DNA of 64,000 nt, taken from Clostridia bacterium (lineage in GTDB: Bacteria > Bacillota > Clostridia > Oscillospirales > SIG627). Below are positions 180 to 29,009 of this stretch, in pieces; within the stretch, counting starts at the first letter, position 1; every line of letters starts with the position of its first letter. The stretch covers positions 1-64,000 of the forward strand of contig JAFXEX010000026.1 in assembly GCA_017520825.1 (NCBI GenBank), read 5' to 3'. Below the pieces are notes generated by a model. That model saw only the letters and a program-made list of their open reading frames with translations. It did no database searches and was not told where the DNA came from. Both the position numbers and the translations under genes were made by a program.

Positions 180-1355
180 TCAAAGCTCCACCACAAGCTC
201 GGTCATGCTCTCCATAGCTCTGTCCATAAGAGCCTCTCTGTCAAGTCGGGCTTCTGCCTTAATTACCTTTTCGAGAATGGGCTTGGTTCTTGGATGCCGT
301 GGTGTAAAGACGGTACAGCAGTCCTCGTAGGGCAGAATAGACGTCTCAAATGTATCTATTTTTCTTGCAATTTCTACTATTTCCTCTTTATCCATTCCGA
401 TACAGGGACGAAAGACGGGCAACGAGGTGGTGCAATCGGTAACGGCAATGGCAGACATTGTCTGACTTGCCACCTGTCCTATACTCTCACCCGTTATAAG
501 CGCCTGAGCGCCACACTTCTTTGCAACTCCTTCTGCAAGGGGCATCATAAATCGTCGAAGAATGAGGGTGAAGTAATCCTCCTCACAATTATCGCGAATG
601 GCTTCCTGAATTTCGGTAAGACTAACGAAATGTATTCTTATTCTGTCGGTGTATTCGCAAAGGCAACGAGCCAAGGCAATAACCTTTTCCTTCGCACGCT
701 CTGAGGTGTAAGGGAAGCTCTCAAAATGCACGGCTTCAATTTCAACGCCTCTTTTTGCAAGCATATAGCCTGCCACGGGAGAATCAATTCCTCCCGAAAG
801 GAGAAGCAGTCCTCTGCCGTTTGAAAGATAGGGCATACCTCCTGCGCCATGCTCCGAGCCTGCGTGAATATAGGCGTATTTTTCTCTGATTTCCACTCTT
901 ACCACTATTTCGGGGCTTACCACGTCTACCTTTACGTCGGGGCAAAGCTCTGAAAGCTCACCACCTACCTCTGCCATTATCTGAGGTGAGGTAAGAGGAA
1001 ATTGCTTGTCACTTCTTCTTGCGTCAACCTTGAAGGAACGGTACGAGCTTATATGCTGAGGTATATTTTCGCAGGCAACCTTAACGATATCGTCCATATT
1101 CTTTTCGGCTCTGTACGCAATGCAAAGGGACACGATGCCGAACACCTTTTTCAAAACCTCGTAGGCTTCCTCAACCCTTGAGTCGTCGTGAGGGGTAACG
1201 TAGAGAGTGGACTGCATACATTCAAATTCGAAGGCGTCGCCCACAAGTCTTCTCATTCTTGCCTTTATTTTATCGCAGAGAAGCTTTTCAAAGGAGCGCT
1301 TGTTGGCTCCCTTTAAAATCAGCTCTCCGTATTTCATGAGTATAGTTCTCGTCAT
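180..1355 (-). CDS. thiI: tRNA 4-thiouridine synthase ThiI
   Basis: ThiI adenylates U8 of tRNA and inserts sulfur; it also serves in thiamine thiazole synthesis. The 391-residue product has an N-terminal ferredoxin-like/THUMP region (about residues 60-165) and the PP-loop motif SGGIDSP near residue 187, followed by the AANH-type ATPase domain. It ends without the C-terminal rhodanese domain of the enterobacterial form, as is usual in Firmicutes. An AAGGAAGG ribosome site precedes the ATG. The gene lies 15 bp downstream of a cysteine desulfurase on the same strand, which is the expected persulfide donor, so the two probably form a sulfur-relay operon. Confidence 0.95.
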   Translation of the reverse strand: MTRTILMKYGELILKGANKRSFEKLLCDKIKARMRRLVGDAFEFECMQSTLYVTPHDDSRVEEAYEVLKKVFGIVSLCIAYRAEKNMDDIVKVACENIPQHISSYRSFKVDARRSDKQFPLTSPQIMAEVGGELSELCPDVKVDVVSPEIVVRVEIREKYAYIHAGSEHGAGGMPYLSNGRGLLLLSGGIDSPVAGYMLAKRGVEIEAVHFESFPYTSERAKEKVIALARCLCEYTDRIRIHFVSLTEIQEAIRDNCEEDYFTLILRRFMMPLAEGVAKKCGAQALITGESIGQVASQTMSAIAVTDCTTSLPVFRPCIGMDKEEIVEIARKIDTFETSILPYEDCCTVFTPRHPRTKPILEKVIKAEARLDREALMDRAMESMTELVVEL

Positions 1356-1370
1356 AATAGTCCTTCCTTG

Positions 1371-2498
1371 TTATCTCACCCTTGCAACGCTTTGCATTGC
1401 CTGTGAGAGACTCTTTGCCAACGCATCTATATCGTCCTTGGTGTTATAGTGCGACAGACTTATACGCAATGCGCCGTCGGCTTGTCTGTCGGTAAGACCA
1501 AATGCCTCAAGCACACCGCTTTTTCCTTTTTTTGCCGAGCACGCCGACCCACTTGACACGAAAATTCCGTCACTTGAAAGCTTGTGCAAAAGCACCTCGC
1601 TTCTGTAGCCCTCTACCGAAACATTTACAATGGATGGGCAGGGGGTTTCAGGGATATTCAGCTTTACGCCCGAAATGCTTCCAAGTGTCTCAACGGTATA
1701 TCCGTAAAGCTCCTTCATATATTCAAGCCTCGTGCCGTCTCCCATCAGCTCGCTGACGGTAGCGCCCATTACGGCAATGCCCATAGTGTTTTCCGTACCA
1801 CTTCTGAGATTTCTTTCCTGGCCACCACCGTAGGTGTGTGGTGGAAGCACCAGTCCTTTTTTTATAATTACGGCGCCGGTACCCTTTAAGCCGTGTACCT
1901 TGTGTGCCGAAACCGAAATTATATCTGCGCCGAGCGACGACAGGGACAAACGCTCTTTGGTGTAAGCCTGAACGCAGTCGCTGTGAATAATGGCTCGTGG
2001 GGACACCCTTTTTACTGCCCTTGCCACCGAGCCGACGTCGTAAATTGCACCCGTTTCGTTATTGGTGCGCATAACGGTCACCAGAGAAATATCGGGGGAC
2101 AGACTTCTTTCAAGCTGTGCCATATCAAGCGCGCCACCCCTTGTGGACAGACGGATTATCTCCCAGCCCTCTCCTTCAAGGTATTCCAGAGGCTTGGACA
2201 CTGCAGGATGCTCCGAATCGGTGGTAATTATCTTCTTTCCCACCTTTGCGTTCTTCCTTGCCCCACCAAGAATGGCAATGTTGTCTGCCTCCGTTCCACT
2301 TGAGGTAAAATACACCTCGTCGGCACGGACGCCCAGGCTTTTAGCCACGGCTTCACGGGCAAGAGTGATTTCCTTTTCTGCCTTCAGTCCCTCGTTGTGA
2401 AGAGAAGAGGGATTGCCGAAAATCTCAAGCATCTCCCATATTTTCTTTTTTGCCGACTCCGAAAGAGGAGTGGTTGCGCTATTATCAAGGTATACCAT
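1371..2498 (-). CDS. Cysteine desulfurase (NifS/IscS-like)
   Basis: This PLP enzyme converts cysteine to alanine and an enzyme-bound persulfide. The 375-residue sequence carries the fold-type I signature: start MVYLDNSATT, the cofactor lysine in SAHK (K200), the HSDCVQ motif (about 172-177) and the persulfide-carrying cysteine in SSGSACS (C320). A GGGAAAGGGG ribosome site supports the ATG at 2498. It lies directly upstream of thiI, so the likely role is sulfur supply for tRNA 4-thiouridine and thiamine rather than general Fe-S assembly; no scaffold gene (iscU/sufU) is nearby. The promoter at 2567-2595 faces it. Confidence 0.93.
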   Translation of the reverse strand: MVYLDNSATTPLSESAKKKIWEMLEIFGNPSSLHNEGLKAEKEITLAREAVAKSLGVRADEVYFTSSGTEADNIAILGGARKNAKVGKKIITTDSEHPAVSKPLEYLEGEGWEIIRLSTRGGALDMAQLERSLSPDISLVTVMRTNNETGAIYDVGSVARAVKRVSPRAIIHSDCVQAYTKERLSLSSLGADIISVSAHKVHGLKGTGAVIIKKGLVLPPHTYGGGQERNLRSGTENTMGIAVMGATVSELMGDGTRLEYMKELYGYTVETLGSISGVKLNIPETPCPSIVNVSVEGYRSEVLLHKLSSDGIFVSSGSACSAKKGKSGVLEAFGLTDRQADGALRISLSHYNTKDDIDALAKSLSQAMQSVARVR

Positions 2499-2530
2499 AT
2501 TGTCCCCTTTCCCTTGAGTGCAAAAATGTC

Positions 2531-2559
2531 TTGCTTTTAAACACTTTTCGTATTATAAT
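2531..2559 (+). promoter_or_regulatory. Sigma-A-type promoter for the dusB operon
   Basis: TTGCTT (2531-2536), 17-bp spacer and TATAAT (2554-2559) lie about 60 bp upstream of the dusB start. It overlaps the divergent promoter region of the cysteine desulfurase gene. Confidence 0.65.
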
Positions 2560-2566
2560 CTATTAT

Positions 2567-2595
2567 AGTATAAACTTGGAATTTTAGCAATACAA
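2567..2595 (-). promoter_or_regulatory. Sigma-A-type promoter for the cysteine desulfurase-thiI operon
   Basis: Read on the minus strand, TTGTAT (2590-2595) and TATACT (2567-2572) are separated by 17 bp. It is divergent from the dusB promoter in the 123-bp gap between the two operons. Confidence 0.6.
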
Positions 2596-2621
2596 GAAAC
2601 GAATTTTTTTAAAGGATTTAT

Positions 2622-3554
2622 ATGACCAAGATATTTTTTGCGCCTATGGCAGGAGTTGGTGACAGCGCCTTCCGAACCGTCTGTATGAGACACGGCGCCG
2701 ACGGTGTTACAAGTGAAATGATTTCGGCAAAGGCTACGGTTTTCGGTGACAAAAAAACCCTTGAGCTTGCCTCTCGCACTAACGAGGAGACTCCCTTTGC
2801 CCTTCAGATATTCGGCTCTGAGCCCGAAATTATGGCGAAGGGCGCTAAAATTTTAGCAGAAAAAGCACGTCCCGATTCCATCGATATCAATATGGGCTGT
2901 CCCGTGAATAAAATTGTGAAAAACGGCGAGGGCTCGGCGCTGATGAAGAGACCCGAGCTGGTGTACGAAATCGTTGCCAGAGTAACCGAAGCAGTCTATC
3001 CTCTGCCCGTTACCGTCAAAATCAGAAGTGGAATTGACGAAAACAGTATCAACGCCGTTGAGGTCGCCCTTATGGCTGAAAAGGGTGGCGCCTCTATGCT
3101 CACAGTCCACGGAAGAACACGCAGTCAGCTTTACGCGCCACCCGTAAACCTTGATATTATACGAGAGGTAAAAAGGGCAGTTTCCTGCCCCGTTGTGGGA
3201 AACGGAGATATAGTGTCGGGTGAAACGGCTTTGAAAATGCTGAAGGAGACCGGCTGTGACCACCTGATGATTGGCAGAGGGGCTTTGGGCAGACCCTGGA
3301 TATTCAACGAAATAAAGGCAGAACTTTTCGGCACGGAAAAGCCCTCAATTCCCACCGGGGAAGAGCTTTTTGAGGAAATTCTGACTCATCTTGACCTTGC
3401 TATTTCCCTCAAGGGTGAAAGGCAGGCAATAATGGAGTCACGCGCTCAGATAGCCTGGTACGTAAAGGGTACTAAGGGCGCTGCAAAAATAAGGCAAAGA
3501 ATTAATTCTGCTTCCTCAAGGGAGCAGGTTGTGGAGATACTTAAGGAAATATGA
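2622..3554 (+). CDS. dusB: tRNA-dihydrouridine synthase
   Basis: This FMN-dependent enzyme reduces uridines in the tRNA D-loop. The 310-residue protein begins with the family motif APMAGVGD and contains the hallmark catalytic stretch INMGCPVNK (about residues 88-96, with the active cysteine), the HGRTR motif and the FMN-binding VGNGDI and MIGRGALGRPW motifs. Length is normal for DusB/Dus family members. The stop overlaps the start of the sigma factor gene by 4 bp (ATGA), so the two are translationally coupled. Confidence 0.93.
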   Translation: MTKIFFAPMAGVGDSAFRTVCMRHGADGVTSEMISAKATVFGDKKTLELASRTNEETPFALQIFGSEPEIMAKGAKILAEKARPDSIDINMGCPVNKIVKNGEGSALMKRPELVYEIVARVTEAVYPLPVTVKIRSGIDENSINAVEVALMAEKGGASMLTVHGRTRSQLYAPPVNLDIIREVKRAVSCPVVGNGDIVSGETALKMLKETGCDHLMIGRGALGRPWIFNEIKAELFGTEKPSIPTGEELFEEILTHLDLAISLKGERQAIMESRAQIAWYVKGTKGAAKIRQRINSASSREQVVEILKEI

Positions 3555-23863: not shown

Positions 23864-24856
23864 ATGTCAAAAGAAAAACGCGCTTGTCCCACTGCTGCAA
23901 ACCGTGTGGGAGGACAGGCTGTACTTGAAGGCATTATGATGAAGCACAAAACCAGCTGTGCCACTGCAGTCAGATGCCCCGACGGCAAGATTGCCGTAGA
24001 AAAAAGAGAAGTAAAATCGATTAAAGAAAAAATCCCCTTCCTCAGAATTCCCATTATCCGAGGAGTAGTAAATTTCGTGGAATCCATGATGCTTTCCATG
24101 TCTACCCTCACTCTATCGGCAGAGATGCAGGGCATCGAGGAAGAGCCTTCAAAATTTGAAAAATGGCTGGAAAAGAAGCTCGGCAAAAGTCTTATGTCGG
24201 TTGCTGCAATAATCGGAGGCGTGCTTGGCGTTCTTTTGGCGCTGGGACTTTTCTTCTATCTGCCAATGGCAGTTTCAAAGCTATTTTCCCTCGTTTTCGA
24301 TATGCCTGCCGTCGTAAAGGCAATCGTCGAGGGCGTCGCTAAAATGGCGATTTTCGTTTTGTATATATGGCTCGTTGCCTTTATGCCCGATATTCGCCGT
24401 ACCTACGAGTACCACGGCGCAGAGCATAAGTCTATTTTCTGTCACGAGGCAGGCTTACCACTTACCGTAGAGAACATAAAAAAGCAATCTCGCTTTCACC
24501 CACGCTGTGGTACAAGCATGATGTTCGTAATGCTCTTGCTTGGTATCGTCGTGTCGGCAGCGCTCCCTGCATCTTTGTGGAACAATCTGTTTTTAAGATT
24601 TTTAACAAAGCTTCTTATACTTCCCCTGGTTGTAGGCATAGGCTACGAATTAACTATACTTTCTGGAACGCACGACAATTTTGTACTGCGTATTCTCACA
24701 AAGCCCGGACTTTGGTTTCAGAGAATAACCACCCGTGAGCCCGACGATAAGGAAATCGAGGTGGCAATAGTTGCCCTCAAATCCTCGCTTCCCGAGGAAT
24801 ATCCCCCTGAAACAGTGTTTGACGGAATAGAGAACGGACAATGCTTGGAAAACTGA
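23864..24856 (+). CDS. yqhQ: DUF1385 family membrane protein (YqhQ-like)
   Basis: The 330-residue protein begins with the family motif VGGQAVLEGIMMK (about 15-27), followed by the RIPIIRGVVNFVE region, three or four membrane segments (about 105-165 and 215-265) and the conserved YHGAEHKSIFCHEAG and FHPRCGTSMMF motifs with His and Cys residues that could bind metal. Members are typically found beside prmC and prfA in Firmicutes and have no settled function. The 3' end overlaps the prmC start by 16 bp. AAGGAG lies upstream. Confidence 0.88.
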   Translation: MSKEKRACPTAANRVGGQAVLEGIMMKHKTSCATAVRCPDGKIAVEKREVKSIKEKIPFLRIPIIRGVVNFVESMMLSMSTLTLSAEMQGIEEEPSKFEKWLEKKLGKSLMSVAAIIGGVLGVLLALGLFFYLPMAVSKLFSLVFDMPAVVKAIVEGVAKMAIFVLYIWLVAFMPDIRRTYEYHGAEHKSIFCHEAGLPLTVENIKKQSRFHPRCGTSMMFVMLLLGIVVSAALPASLWNNLFLRFLTKLLILPLVVGIGYELTILSGTHDNFVLRILTKPGLWFQRITTREPDDKEIEVAIVALKSSLPEEYPPETVFDGIENGQCLEN

Positions 24857-25632
24857 AAAGGTTGTGGGAAGGGTCCTCCTTCGCCCGTGAAAACCTTGCC
24901 TTTCGTGAAACGGTAGGACTTCTGCTTGAAAAGTACGGCTATTCCAGAGACGCCCTTTTGCTTGGTAAGGATATTAACTGCTCCTTGCTGATATCAGATT
25001 TTGAAAGAGCAGTAAACGGCGAGCCCCTGGGATATATTCTGGGTAAAGTCCCCTTCTGGCAAGAGGAATATTTCGTTGAAGAGGGGGTGCTTATCCCCCG
25101 TAGCGACAGCGAGGCTCTGGTTGAAGAGGCAATACGGCGCATCCCACAAAACACTCATTTCGTTGATATTTGTACGGGAAGTGGTTGTATCGGCATTTCG
25201 GTATTGCGTGCCCGTCAGGACTTGACGGCAACCCTTTTGGATATATCTCCCGTAGCAGAAAGGGTAGCAAAGAAAAATATTAATGCCTTGGAGGTATCGG
25301 ACAGATGCGAATTCAGGCGCTTCGACCTGTTTTCAGACCCTCTGCCCGATTGCTCAACGGTTATTATGAATCCCCCTTATATCACAAGGGATGAAATGAA
25401 GTCCTTGCCCGAAAACGTAAAGCGAGAGCCTGCTCTTGCGCTGGACGGTGGAGAGGACGGCTTGGATTTTTACAGATTCGTTGCAGACGACCACGCTTAT
25501 TCGGACAAATTGCTTATTTTTGAAATAGGCTATAAACAAGGAAATTCCCTCTGCCGTCTTTTTAACGGTGGAGAGATAATAAAGGACCTGTGTGGAAACG
25601 ACAGGTGCTTCATAAAAAATAATTTAATGTAA
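24841..25632 (+). CDS. prmC: Release factor glutamine methyltransferase PrmC/HemK
   Basis: PrmC methylates the GGQ glutamine of peptide release factors. The 263-residue sequence has the N-terminal helical domain and the SAM-binding methyltransferase domain with IPRSDSEALVEEA, DICTGSGCIGIS (motif I, about 103-114) and the catalytic NPPYI (about 180-184). Length is slightly short but complete. It overlaps yqhQ. The usual downstream prfA is absent; the next gene is an unrelated large protein. Confidence 0.93.
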   Translation: MLGKLKRLWEGSSFARENLAFRETVGLLLEKYGYSRDALLLGKDINCSLLISDFERAVNGEPLGYILGKVPFWQEEYFVEEGVLIPRSDSEALVEEAIRRIPQNTHFVDICTGSGCIGISVLRARQDLTATLLDISPVAERVAKKNINALEVSDRCEFRRFDLFSDPLPDCSTVIMNPPYITRDEMKSLPENVKREPALALDGGEDGLDFYRFVADDHAYSDKLLIFEIGYKQGNSLCRLFNGGEIIKDLCGNDRCFIKNNLM

Positions 25633-25661
25633 GAACAACGGCACAAGAGAAAGGAGACATC

Positions 25662-27872
25662 ATGCCATCAACTCTTATATCTAATGCAGAAATTGACGTT
25701 TTAAAGCTTCCTCACTTCCCCACGGCCTTTTTGGGCGCAATCTGGCGCGCCTGGGGACAGGTTTCGGCAGAAACCCTTGCAAAGGTCCTTGAAACCACAC
25801 CCGAAAACGTAAGAAAATCCGCGTCGGACATGGGACTTGACCCCGACGTTAAGGCAGACGAGGCTCTTTGGAAGAAGAGAGGCTACATAACCCTCATAAG
25901 AAATATGTGGCATCTGTTGACCTTCGATCAGATATGCACCTTGCTCGGAGTGTCGGACACAGAGCTTGACACCACCCTGAAGGAAGACGACTTTCTCTAT
26001 CATAAGATGGGTAACTTCTTCCCGATAATGCCTAAAACCGTTTGGCGCGAGCTGACCGAGGCAGAGAAAAAAGAGGTTGCATTCATCAAGGAAAACTGTT
26101 TGAAATACAAGGCTCTTGACAGTCAGTATCCCGACGATGCCTTTCGCTTCGTTAAGGAATACTACAAGGAAGCCGACGGCGCACCTGAATTCGTCAGTGA
26201 CATTAACGGAGATTTGAGAGTAATCTACTCCTTCTTCGCGCTTTTCGGCGACCCGTTGATGGAGGACGACTGCGACCCATTCCCCGACAGACTTCTTGAG
26301 GAATACGCTCGCTACGGCATCAACGGAATTTGGATGCAGGGAGTGCTTTATCAGCTTGCTCCTTATCCCTTTGCACCGGAGCTGTCAAAGGGCTGGGAAA
26401 AGCGTCTTGCAAACCTTGCAAAAATAGTTAAAAAGGCGGCAAAATACGGCATCGGCATCTATCTCTACATAAACGAGCCCAGATGTATGCCCGAAAGAGT
26501 CTTTGAAAAGTACCCTCAGATCAAGGGTCATATGAGAAATAACGACGTTGGAATGTACTCGGTATGTACCTCTACTCCCGAGGTTCAGGAATATCTTGAT
26601 TCTGCAATGTATCAGCTCTTCAAGACGGCAGAGGGCCTTGCAGGCTTTATCACAATATCTGCAAGTGAAAATCAGACCAACTGCTATTCCCACAGAAAGA
26701 ACGGTGACTGCAACTGTCCCAGATGTAAGGAAAGAAAGAGCTACGACGTAATCGCAGAAGTAAACAATATTATGTCCCGTGCTGCAAAGAGAGCAAACCC
26801 CAAAGCCCGTGCAGTAATATGGACTTGGTCCTGGAACGGAGAGGACGTTGACGAAATCATAAGACGTCTTGACAAGGACGTAATAGTTCAAACCGTTTCG
26901 GAAACTAAAATGAAGCTGGTTAAGGGTGGAATTGAAAGTGAAATCCGTGACTACTCTATGTCAAACCCCGGACCCAGCGATGCAGCAATGCAGGAATGGA
27001 ACGTGGCAAAGGAATGTGGACTTGACTGCTCGGCAAAGGTGCAGTTCAACTGCTCGTGGGAGCTTCCCGGAGTACCCTACGTACCTGCTTTCGACCTGGT
27101 GGCAGAGCACGCTTCAAATCTTCATCGAGAAAAGGTAAAGCACGTTATGCTCTCCTGGACTCTCGGTGGCTCACCCTCACCCAACATTGCCCTTGCAGGC
27201 GAAATTATGCGCAAGGAAACGCTTGACGGCAACGAGGTGCGTGACTTTATAGAACGCAACTATCCCGGAGAAATGGCAGAGGTAGCCTATGAAGCGCAAA
27301 AAATCTTCTCTGAAGCCTTCCGTCAGTTCCCCTTCCACATAGCAGTGCTTTACAATGCACCTCAGACCTCGGGACCCAAGAGCCCCTTCTTCACCGAGCC
27401 AACGGGCTTGAATTCCACAATGACCTGCTTCCCCTACGACGACCTCAAGAGATGGAAAGCAATTTTCCCCGAGGAAATTTATATAAATCAGTTCCAGCTT
27501 GTAGTTGACGGCTGGCGCCGTGCCCTTGACGTTATGGAAGGATATAAAGGCGAAAGAAACGTTGCATTTAACGAGCTTTACGATATGATGCTTGGCTCCT
27601 ACGTGCATTATCTTACCAATCTCAACCTGGCAAAATTCGTACACAGAAGAAACGAATGTCTTGAAAGAGGCTTTACGGAAGCAGATTACAAGTATTTGCT
27701 TGAAATACTTGACTGCGAGGAAAAGAACGTTGTTGACGCCCTCAAGCTTCAGAGCCGTGAATCAAGGCTGGGCTTCGAGGCAGCAAACCATTATTGCTTC
27801 ACCAGACAGGACCTTTTGGAAAAGCTTATCAATATTGCATGGTGCAAGAGATACTACGAAAATCTTCTCTAA
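25662..27872 (+). CDS. Large protein of unknown function, possible TIM-barrel glycosidase
   Basis: This 736-residue protein has no signal peptide. The first 125 residues contain two short helix-turn-helix-like stretches (SAETLAKVLETTPENVRK and LLTFDQICTLLGVSDTEL). From about residue 185 the pattern resembles GH20/DUF4838-like TIM-barrel enzymes: YGINGIWMQGVLY, YGIGIYLYINEPRC, GFITISASENQTNCYSH, a NCPRC pair of cysteines, AVIWTWSWNG and FNCSWELPGVPYVPA. Acidic residues after strands could be catalytic, but I cannot assign them. The C-terminal 150 residues are helical. It is preceded by AAAGGAGA and lies between prmC and recA, an unusual place. The function is inferred only. Confidence 0.5.
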   Translation: MPSTLISNAEIDVLKLPHFPTAFLGAIWRAWGQVSAETLAKVLETTPENVRKSASDMGLDPDVKADEALWKKRGYITLIRNMWHLLTFDQICTLLGVSDTELDTTLKEDDFLYHKMGNFFPIMPKTVWRELTEAEKKEVAFIKENCLKYKALDSQYPDDAFRFVKEYYKEADGAPEFVSDINGDLRVIYSFFALFGDPLMEDDCDPFPDRLLEEYARYGINGIWMQGVLYQLAPYPFAPELSKGWEKRLANLAKIVKKAAKYGIGIYLYINEPRCMPERVFEKYPQIKGHMRNNDVGMYSVCTSTPEVQEYLDSAMYQLFKTAEGLAGFITISASENQTNCYSHRKNGDCNCPRCKERKSYDVIAEVNNIMSRAAKRANPKARAVIWTWSWNGEDVDEIIRRLDKDVIVQTVSETKMKLVKGGIESEIRDYSMSNPGPSDAAMQEWNVAKECGLDCSAKVQFNCSWELPGVPYVPAFDLVAEHASNLHREKVKHVMLSWTLGGSPSPNIALAGEIMRKETLDGNEVRDFIERNYPGEMAEVAYEAQKIFSEAFRQFPFHIAVLYNAPQTSGPKSPFFTEPTGLNSTMTCFPYDDLKRWKAIFPEEIYINQFQLVVDGWRRALDVMEGYKGERNVAFNELYDMMLGSYVHYLTNLNLAKFVHRRNECLERGFTEADYKYLLEILDCEEKNVVDALKLQSRESRLGFEAANHYCFTRQDLLEKLINIAWCKRYYENLL

Positions 27873-27896: not shown

Positions 27897-29009
27897 ATGG
27901 ACGAGAAAAAGAAAAAGACAGCCGAGGCTGCCGAAGAAAAGAACGACGGCAAGGAAGCGGCGAGAAAAAAAGCAATTTCCCAGATAACTAAAAGATACGG
28001 CCAAGGCTCTATTATGAGACTTGGTGACAACACTCAGATGCAGGTAAGCGCAATTCCCACAGGCTCTCTCTCTTTGGACTTTGCGCTGGGTATCGGTGGT
28101 GTTCCCAAGGGCAGAATAGTAGAAATTTACGGACCTGAAAGCTCGGGTAAGACCACTCTTGCTCTCCATATAGCAGCAGAGGCGCAGAAGCTTGGCGGCT
28201 CTGCAGCGTTTATCGACGCCGAGCACGCTCTCGACCCTGCCTATGCGCAGGCAATCGGAGTTGATATTCAGGACCTTCTCGTAGCACAGCCCGACAACGG
28301 CGAGCAGGCTCTTGAAATTGCCGAGGCTCTTATCCGTTCAGACGCTATCGACGTTGTAATCATCGACTCGGTTGCAGCCCTTGTTCCCAAGGCTGAAATT
28401 GAAGGCGATATGGGTCAGGCAATGGTGGGCGCTCACGCAAGACTTATGTCTCAGGCACTCCGTAAGCTGTCAGGTGCTATCGCAAAGAGCCAGTGCGTTC
28501 TTATCTTCATCAACCAGCTTCGTGAAAAGGTTGGTATCGTATACGGAAACCCCGAGGTTACCACCGGTGGTAAGGCGCTGAAGTTCTACGCCTCGGTAAG
28601 AATAGACGTAAGACGTGGCCAGCAGATAAAGAATAAGAGCGACGTTGTAGGAAACCATACCAAGTGTAAGGTTGTAAAGAACAAGTGCGCAGCCCCCTTC
28701 AAGTCGGCTGAATTCGATATTATGTACGGCGAGGGAATTTCCTCGGACGGCGAGCTTCTTGACCTTGGCGAAAGCCTTGGAATAGTTCAGAAGAGTGGTT
28801 CGTGGTACGGCTACGGTGGTTTAAGACTTGGACAGGGTAAGGATAATTCCAAAATTTACCTTAAAGAAAATCCCGATATCCGTGACGAAATCAAGTCGAA
28901 AATTCTTGCTCAGGCAAACGACCTTCAGGGCAAGCTGTCCTTTGGTGGAATAAGTGGTCTTGACGACGACGAAGACGAGGATATCGGAGAAGAGGGCTTT
29001 GAGGAATAA
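27897..29009 (+). CDS. recA: Recombinase A
   Basis: The 370-residue DNA strand-exchange ATPase has Walker [10 protein letters not shown] (about 81-89), Walker [11 protein letters not shown] (about 155-164), the L2-region [13 protein letters not shown] and a conserved core throughout. A charged N-terminal extension of about 25 residues (K/E/A-rich) precedes the usual start of the core, and the C-terminus is acidic ([15 protein letters not shown]). AAAGGAG precedes the ATG. recX follows after 20 bp, the normal regulator pairing. No SOS box was identified immediately upstream, and transcription may come from the preceding gene. Confidence 0.98.

Follow-up and report, generated by a model that had tools for sequence, protein, structure and literature searches.

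The open reading frame (ORF) between prmC and recA, hereafter X, probably encodes a cytoplasmic glycoside hydrolase of an unnamed family, which would belong to the fold group of GH20, GH67, GH84, GH89 and GH138, carries a pair of HTH-like units, probably structural, at its N-terminus, and probably reached its present place by one insertion. The window referred to below is the whole stretch of DNA analyzed, 64,000 nucleotides long.

The prmC-X-recA Region

The genes and sites of the region were as follows.

24841..25632, + strand: prmC, upstream neighbor (NCBIfam)
25650..25656, + strand: ribosome-binding site of X, AAAGGAG, 5 nt before the ATG
25662..27872, + strand: ORF X, probable cytoplasmic glycosidase of 736 aa, with homologs and purifying selection
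27897..29009, + strand: recA, downstream neighbor (TIGR02012), starting 24 nt past the X stop codon and preceded by its own AAAGGAG

As read from the window, X starts with an ATG at 25662 and stops at 27870-27872, in agreement with the earlier note, which had described a 736-aa ORF at this place. The stop codon of prmC is separated from the ATG of X by 29 nt. Assignment of prmC was based on TIGR00536, which scored above its cut-off, and the best model, TIGR03534, was slightly under its own; rimO and pgsA were also confirmed by NCBIfam among the neighbors. No terminator-like site was seen on the + strand between prmC, X and recA, and promoter-like sites over the X region exceeded those in shuffled sequences, with nothing specific to X. 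X is probably read through with the prmC-recA operon.

Full-length homologs of X with 33-77% identity occur across Clostridia, and dN/dS was ~0.09-0.12 in the closer pairs of congeners, so that, on these sequence comparisons, X is a real gene and not a chance ORF. Note that the dN/dS value of 0.22 for the pair G000/G002 was obtained where synonymous sites were close to saturation; the prmC value for G003/G005, which was out of frame, was left out. No signal peptide or membrane segment was apparent in X, the highest 19-residue Kyte-Doolittle mean over the whole protein being 1.04, which supports the previous description of X as non-secreted. The motifs NCPRC and AVIWTWSWNG, pointed out in the same description, are both present in the X sequence.

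Family and Distribution of X

As a single protein, X gave no match above cut-off in Pfam and NCBIfam, and as a single sequence it had no significant relative among PDB sequences. In Pfam at E<=1, X matched neither the GH20 family (PF00728), DUF4838/GH163, nor the GH67 family (PF07488). Furthermore, PF00728 did not appear in the 25 families listed for a set of 31 X family members, and PF07488 was matched only weakly, by 4 of the 31 homologs (best E 0.0029). As far as such searches reach, the X family is without a model in the protein-family libraries used (Pfam, NCBIfam).

The searches for the X family ranged within the phylum of the window. A whole-genome search of relatives gave 15 full-length matches, including the window's own, with at least 38% identity, in addition to partial matches to paralogs. 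Of 391 genomes sampled across the class, 39 had an X match when paralogs were counted, and ~25 of these 39 (~6% of 391) contain most of X or its tandem HTH-like region. The N-terminal region, the barrel and the C-terminal region were all conserved throughout two alignments, A1 (17 sequences) and A3 (31 sequences). The named relatives are metagenome-assembled genomes of Clostridia and Oscillospiraceae, and the titles that give a source mention deer and sheep gut. A plasmid collection searched with X and with one long homolog returned no match.

In hhalign comparisons, two paralog families proved to be related to X in their barrels (E 2.8e-66 and 8.7e-29). One of them, of ~900 aa (E 2.8e-66), is also present in the genome of the window, at G000:C30:3560-4696 (L002), and at L021 and L017. 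The L002 ORF has 984 codons (481-3432, minus strand), with the same barrel as X and no HTH-like region, and L017 is the copy retained by G001, a congener that has no X. A third, remoter family (L018, L019 and L020), whose members are ~680-720 aa long, has a GH20b-like N-terminus and a related barrel. It occurs in several of the related genomes, and Pfam gave nothing above cut-off for it.

Predicted Fold of X

The AlphaFold2 model of X, calculated from an alignment of only 6 sequences, had a pLDDT of 76.6 and a pTM of 0.80, and was divided into the following domains.

26208..27215, + strand: predicted TIM barrel, residues ~183-518 (AlphaFold2 model and fold matches)
27234..27869, + strand: predicted C-terminal helical domain, residues 525-736 (AlphaFold2 model)

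The eight barrel strands in the model were residues 186-189, 222-227, 265-270, 328-331, 383-387, 407-412, 455-460 and 494-497. The top PDB matches by Foldseek were GH138 (E 2.8e-12), GH20 GcnA (8.7e-9), GH67 (1.8e-8) and GH89 (1.2e-7), and GH84 was also among the best. VIA-align gave Z values of 14-17 against Cwp19, GH84, GH67, GH20 and beta-amylase; specifically, Z was 15.5 for GH67 (383 residues, rmsd 5.1) and 14.9 for GcnA (426 residues, rmsd 6.1). Barrels of other function, namely beta-amylase, old yellow enzyme and xylose isomerase, also scored against X. Because the matches were at 10-14% identity, X was matched to a fold group. At the fold level, the model supports placing X within the TIM-barrel group that includes the GH20, GH67, GH84, GH89 and GH138 folds.

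These results bear out the earlier suggestion of a TIM-barrel, glycosidase-like fold. The narrower proposal of GH20/DUF4838-like membership was not supported, since X has no Pfam match to either family and its strand-4 motif is SEN, not the HxGGDE of GH20.

Candidate Catalytic Residues

Conserved residues at the ends of the barrel strands were located in the 31 sequences of the family.

26475..26477, + strand: E272, after strand 3, invariant in 31 sequences
26667..26669, + strand: E336, after strand 4, candidate general acid, invariant and Glu in both paralog families
26682..26726, + strand: strand-4 loop with cysteines C341, C352 and C355, all three invariant, a possible metal site
26901..26903, + strand: E414, after strand 6, candidate base, invariant in 31 sequences
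27060..27062, + strand: E467, after strand 7, candidate nucleophile or base, invariant; the paralog families have Glu or Asp here

W389, W499 and K459 were also invariant in the 31 sequences. Strand 4 of X reads GFITISASENQTNC, in which E336-N337 is invariant. The GH20 motif is HxGGDE, with an Asp-Glu pair after strand 4, and X has no HxGGDE. An acid at strand 4 with a partner at strand 6 or strand 7 is a usual arrangement in the GH20/GH67/GH84/GH89-type fold group. E336 aligns with a Glu in both paralog families, and E467 with a Glu in one and an Asp in the other; E272 is not retained in the remote family. We infer that E336 may serve as the general acid, and E467 and/or E414 as the nucleophile or base, with the qualification that residues 335-338, which include E336, have a pLDDT below 50 in the X model.

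The cysteines of the strand-4 loop lie next to the candidate acid and may form a metal site. A zinc site of the form C-x2-H...C-x2-C was considered and is weakened by the finding that H344, unlike the three invariant cysteines, is present in no more than 18 of the 31 sequences; the site lacks a conserved fourth ligand.

The N-Terminal Tandem HTH-Like Region

Two HTH-like stretches had been noticed earlier in the first 125 residues of X. Both were conserved in 30 homologs, and each was predicted to be a three-helix unit.

25713..25850, + strand: first HTH-like three-helix unit, residues 18-63
25869..26009, + strand: second HTH-like three-helix unit, residues 70-116, with invariant W83, D110, F111 and K115

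In hhalign the two units matched one another (P 6e-6, from a single pair), and they share the pattern IAxxLxTxxExVxxxAxxMGL, and the second ends in a conserved acidic EDDF. The net charge of residues 18-116 was negative in 25 of 30 homologs. The region taken alone gave nothing significant against the PDB, the best values being a Foldseek E of 0.74 and a VIA Z of 5.1 (RecQ C-terminal domain), and its structure resembled the HTH regions of RecQ, AsnC, MarR and DtxR types only weakly. It was present in 36 of the 42 genomes searched, always within an X-sized open frame or a cut or broken copy of one, and a search of a phylum-wide sample with the N-terminal region alone found it in two genomes only, both times with the barrel. 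Our literature search found no glycosidase described as having an HTH region at its N-terminus.

A DNA-binding-like N-terminus on a glycosidase, as the earlier note put it, is upheld in part: the fold and the conserved HTH-like region were supported, whereas DNA binding was not. Since the region has no significant PDB match, is negatively charged in most homologs, and occurs, in the genomes searched, only in the X-type gene, residues 18-116 are more likely to be a structural or interaction module than a DNA-binding one.

A GH20b-Like Domain in the Long Homologs

Many homologs across the class are 800-870 aa long, and their barrel is separated from the N-terminal region by ~110-130 residues, compared with 16-32 in the short forms. 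Pfam GH20b (PF02838) matched the extra stretch weakly to moderately, with 7 of the 31 members at E<=1 and a best value of 1.8e-5; there were also weak matches to GH67M and NAGLU_N. The order looked for as typical of the GH20/GH67/GH84/GH89 fold group was a GH20b-like domain, then the TIM barrel, then a helical domain at the C-terminus; X has the last two as predicted domains, and the GH20b-like part is found in the long homologs only. Examples of long homologs are L026 (JAGAJK010000044, 5965-8469) and L079-L099, in which the GH20b-like domain lies between the HTH-like region and the barrel.

A FastTree tree was built from the barrel only, with the paralogs as the outgroup; these were scored as long though their stretch is shorter, and several branches were weak. 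On this tree the long form stood at the root; Fitch parsimony counted four changes, or five losses if only losses were allowed. X fell in a short-form clade. This suggests that the long form is ancestral and that the GH20b-like domain was lost in the lineage of X.

Location of X beside recA

In five of the six genomes of g1, the genus of the window, prmC and recA flank X (G000, G002, G003, G004 and G005). The sixth, G001, has no X, and its prmC and recA are <30 nt apart. In nine other members of the bacterial family in which this stretch was read, prmC was followed by recA without X. The earlier note had X standing where prfA is normally found; displacement of prfA was ruled out because recA directly follows prmC in most relatives and prfA is on another contig (G000:C5).

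A five-gene tree nested G001 within g1, with support values of 0.84 and 0.967, and G003 and G005 branched outside. The X tree had the same order within g1, and monophyly of the g1 copies of X with respect to G015 was unsupported (0.119). Because G001 nests inside g1 and G003 and G005 lie outside, a single insertion before the g1 radiation, in the ancestor of the genus, with vertical inheritance and one later loss in G001, fits best. A recent insertion with the gene absent from all close relatives, raised earlier as a possibility, was not what we found, as X occupies the same place in four of five congeners.

In other genera, the homologs lie elsewhere, often beside glycan genes, namely GH95, GH29, GH3, GH2, GH38, GH106 and rhamnose mutarotase. 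Several are in housekeeping surroundings (thrS, asnS), which give no clue to the substrate; the homolog of genus g6, for instance, is directly upstream of thrS (L032:8039-12124, L033:1155-5308 and L034:929-5010). The position next to recA is an insertion stably kept in a single genus, and it does not point to a role in DNA repair.

Discussion

Three other explanations of X were weighed. X might be a DNA repair or SOS protein functionally tied to recA, as its position directly upstream of recA in five genomes and the probable common transcript would suggest. This is hardly credible, however, when one congener has prmC and recA adjacent without X, homologs in other genera are located elsewhere, and the fold is of the glycosidase type. 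Another explanation is a sugar-sensing glycosidase that also binds DNA (trigger enzyme), whose HTH units would read an operator and whose barrel would be the sensor, so that genes would be regulated by the sugar substrate. The tandem pattern conserved in 30 homologs and the weak likeness to RecQ, AsnC, MarR and DtxR type regions agree with this, but a net negative charge in 25 of 30 homologs, non-significant fold matches, restriction of the domain to the X-type gene, and the acidic EDDF at the end of the second unit make it improbable.

A non-hydrolytic barrel derived from a glycosidase ancestor, such as a lyase, an isomerase or a carbohydrate-binding scaffold, is unlikely, though it deserves some weight: the fold alone does not show hydrolysis, and some strand-end residues (E272) are not retained in the remote paralog family. 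The four invariant acidic residues after the strands, together with the invariant tryptophans, argue against it. As the glycoside hydrolase that we prefer, X would act in the cytoplasm, probably as an exo-acting enzyme on short imported oligosaccharides, and its N-terminal pair would be a structural or interaction part and not a DNA reader.

On this assignment, X represents a probable glycosidase family, unnamed in the libraries searched and held by ~6% of the 391-genome class sample, whose accessory domain has no confident relative among solved structures. It would be a further intracellular enzyme with which bacteria of the herbivore gut cleave sugars. X also shows that a function on DNA need not follow from an HTH-like stretch beside recA; otherwise it would be an ordinary metabolic gene, though unusually placed.

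Comparison with known systems places X near several of them. The ~900-aa paralog family has a clearly homologous barrel and C-terminal domain; unlike X, it lacks the tandem HTH-like region and has another N-terminal part in its place. GH138 (BP0997, a rhamnogalacturonan II enzyme; 6hzg, 6hzf and 6hze) was the best Foldseek match of the whole X model, with an alignment that covers the barrel and the C-terminal part and leaves the HTH-like region of X outside its range; no sequence similarity was found, as no GH138 chain was hit at E<=5 when the A3 profile was searched against PDB sequences. GH20 enzymes of the GcnA/GH20C type (2epn and 5a6b) differ from X, which has no PF00728 match, no HxGGDE at strand 4 and no GH20b-like domain; they share with X the TIM barrel and the C-terminal helical domain, and with the long homologs the GH20b-like domain. 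Finally, the GH67 alpha-glucuronidases (1h41 and 1mqq) resemble X in having the barrel and the C-terminal part; PF07488 gave weak matches for 4 of the 31 family members and, at E<=1, none for X.
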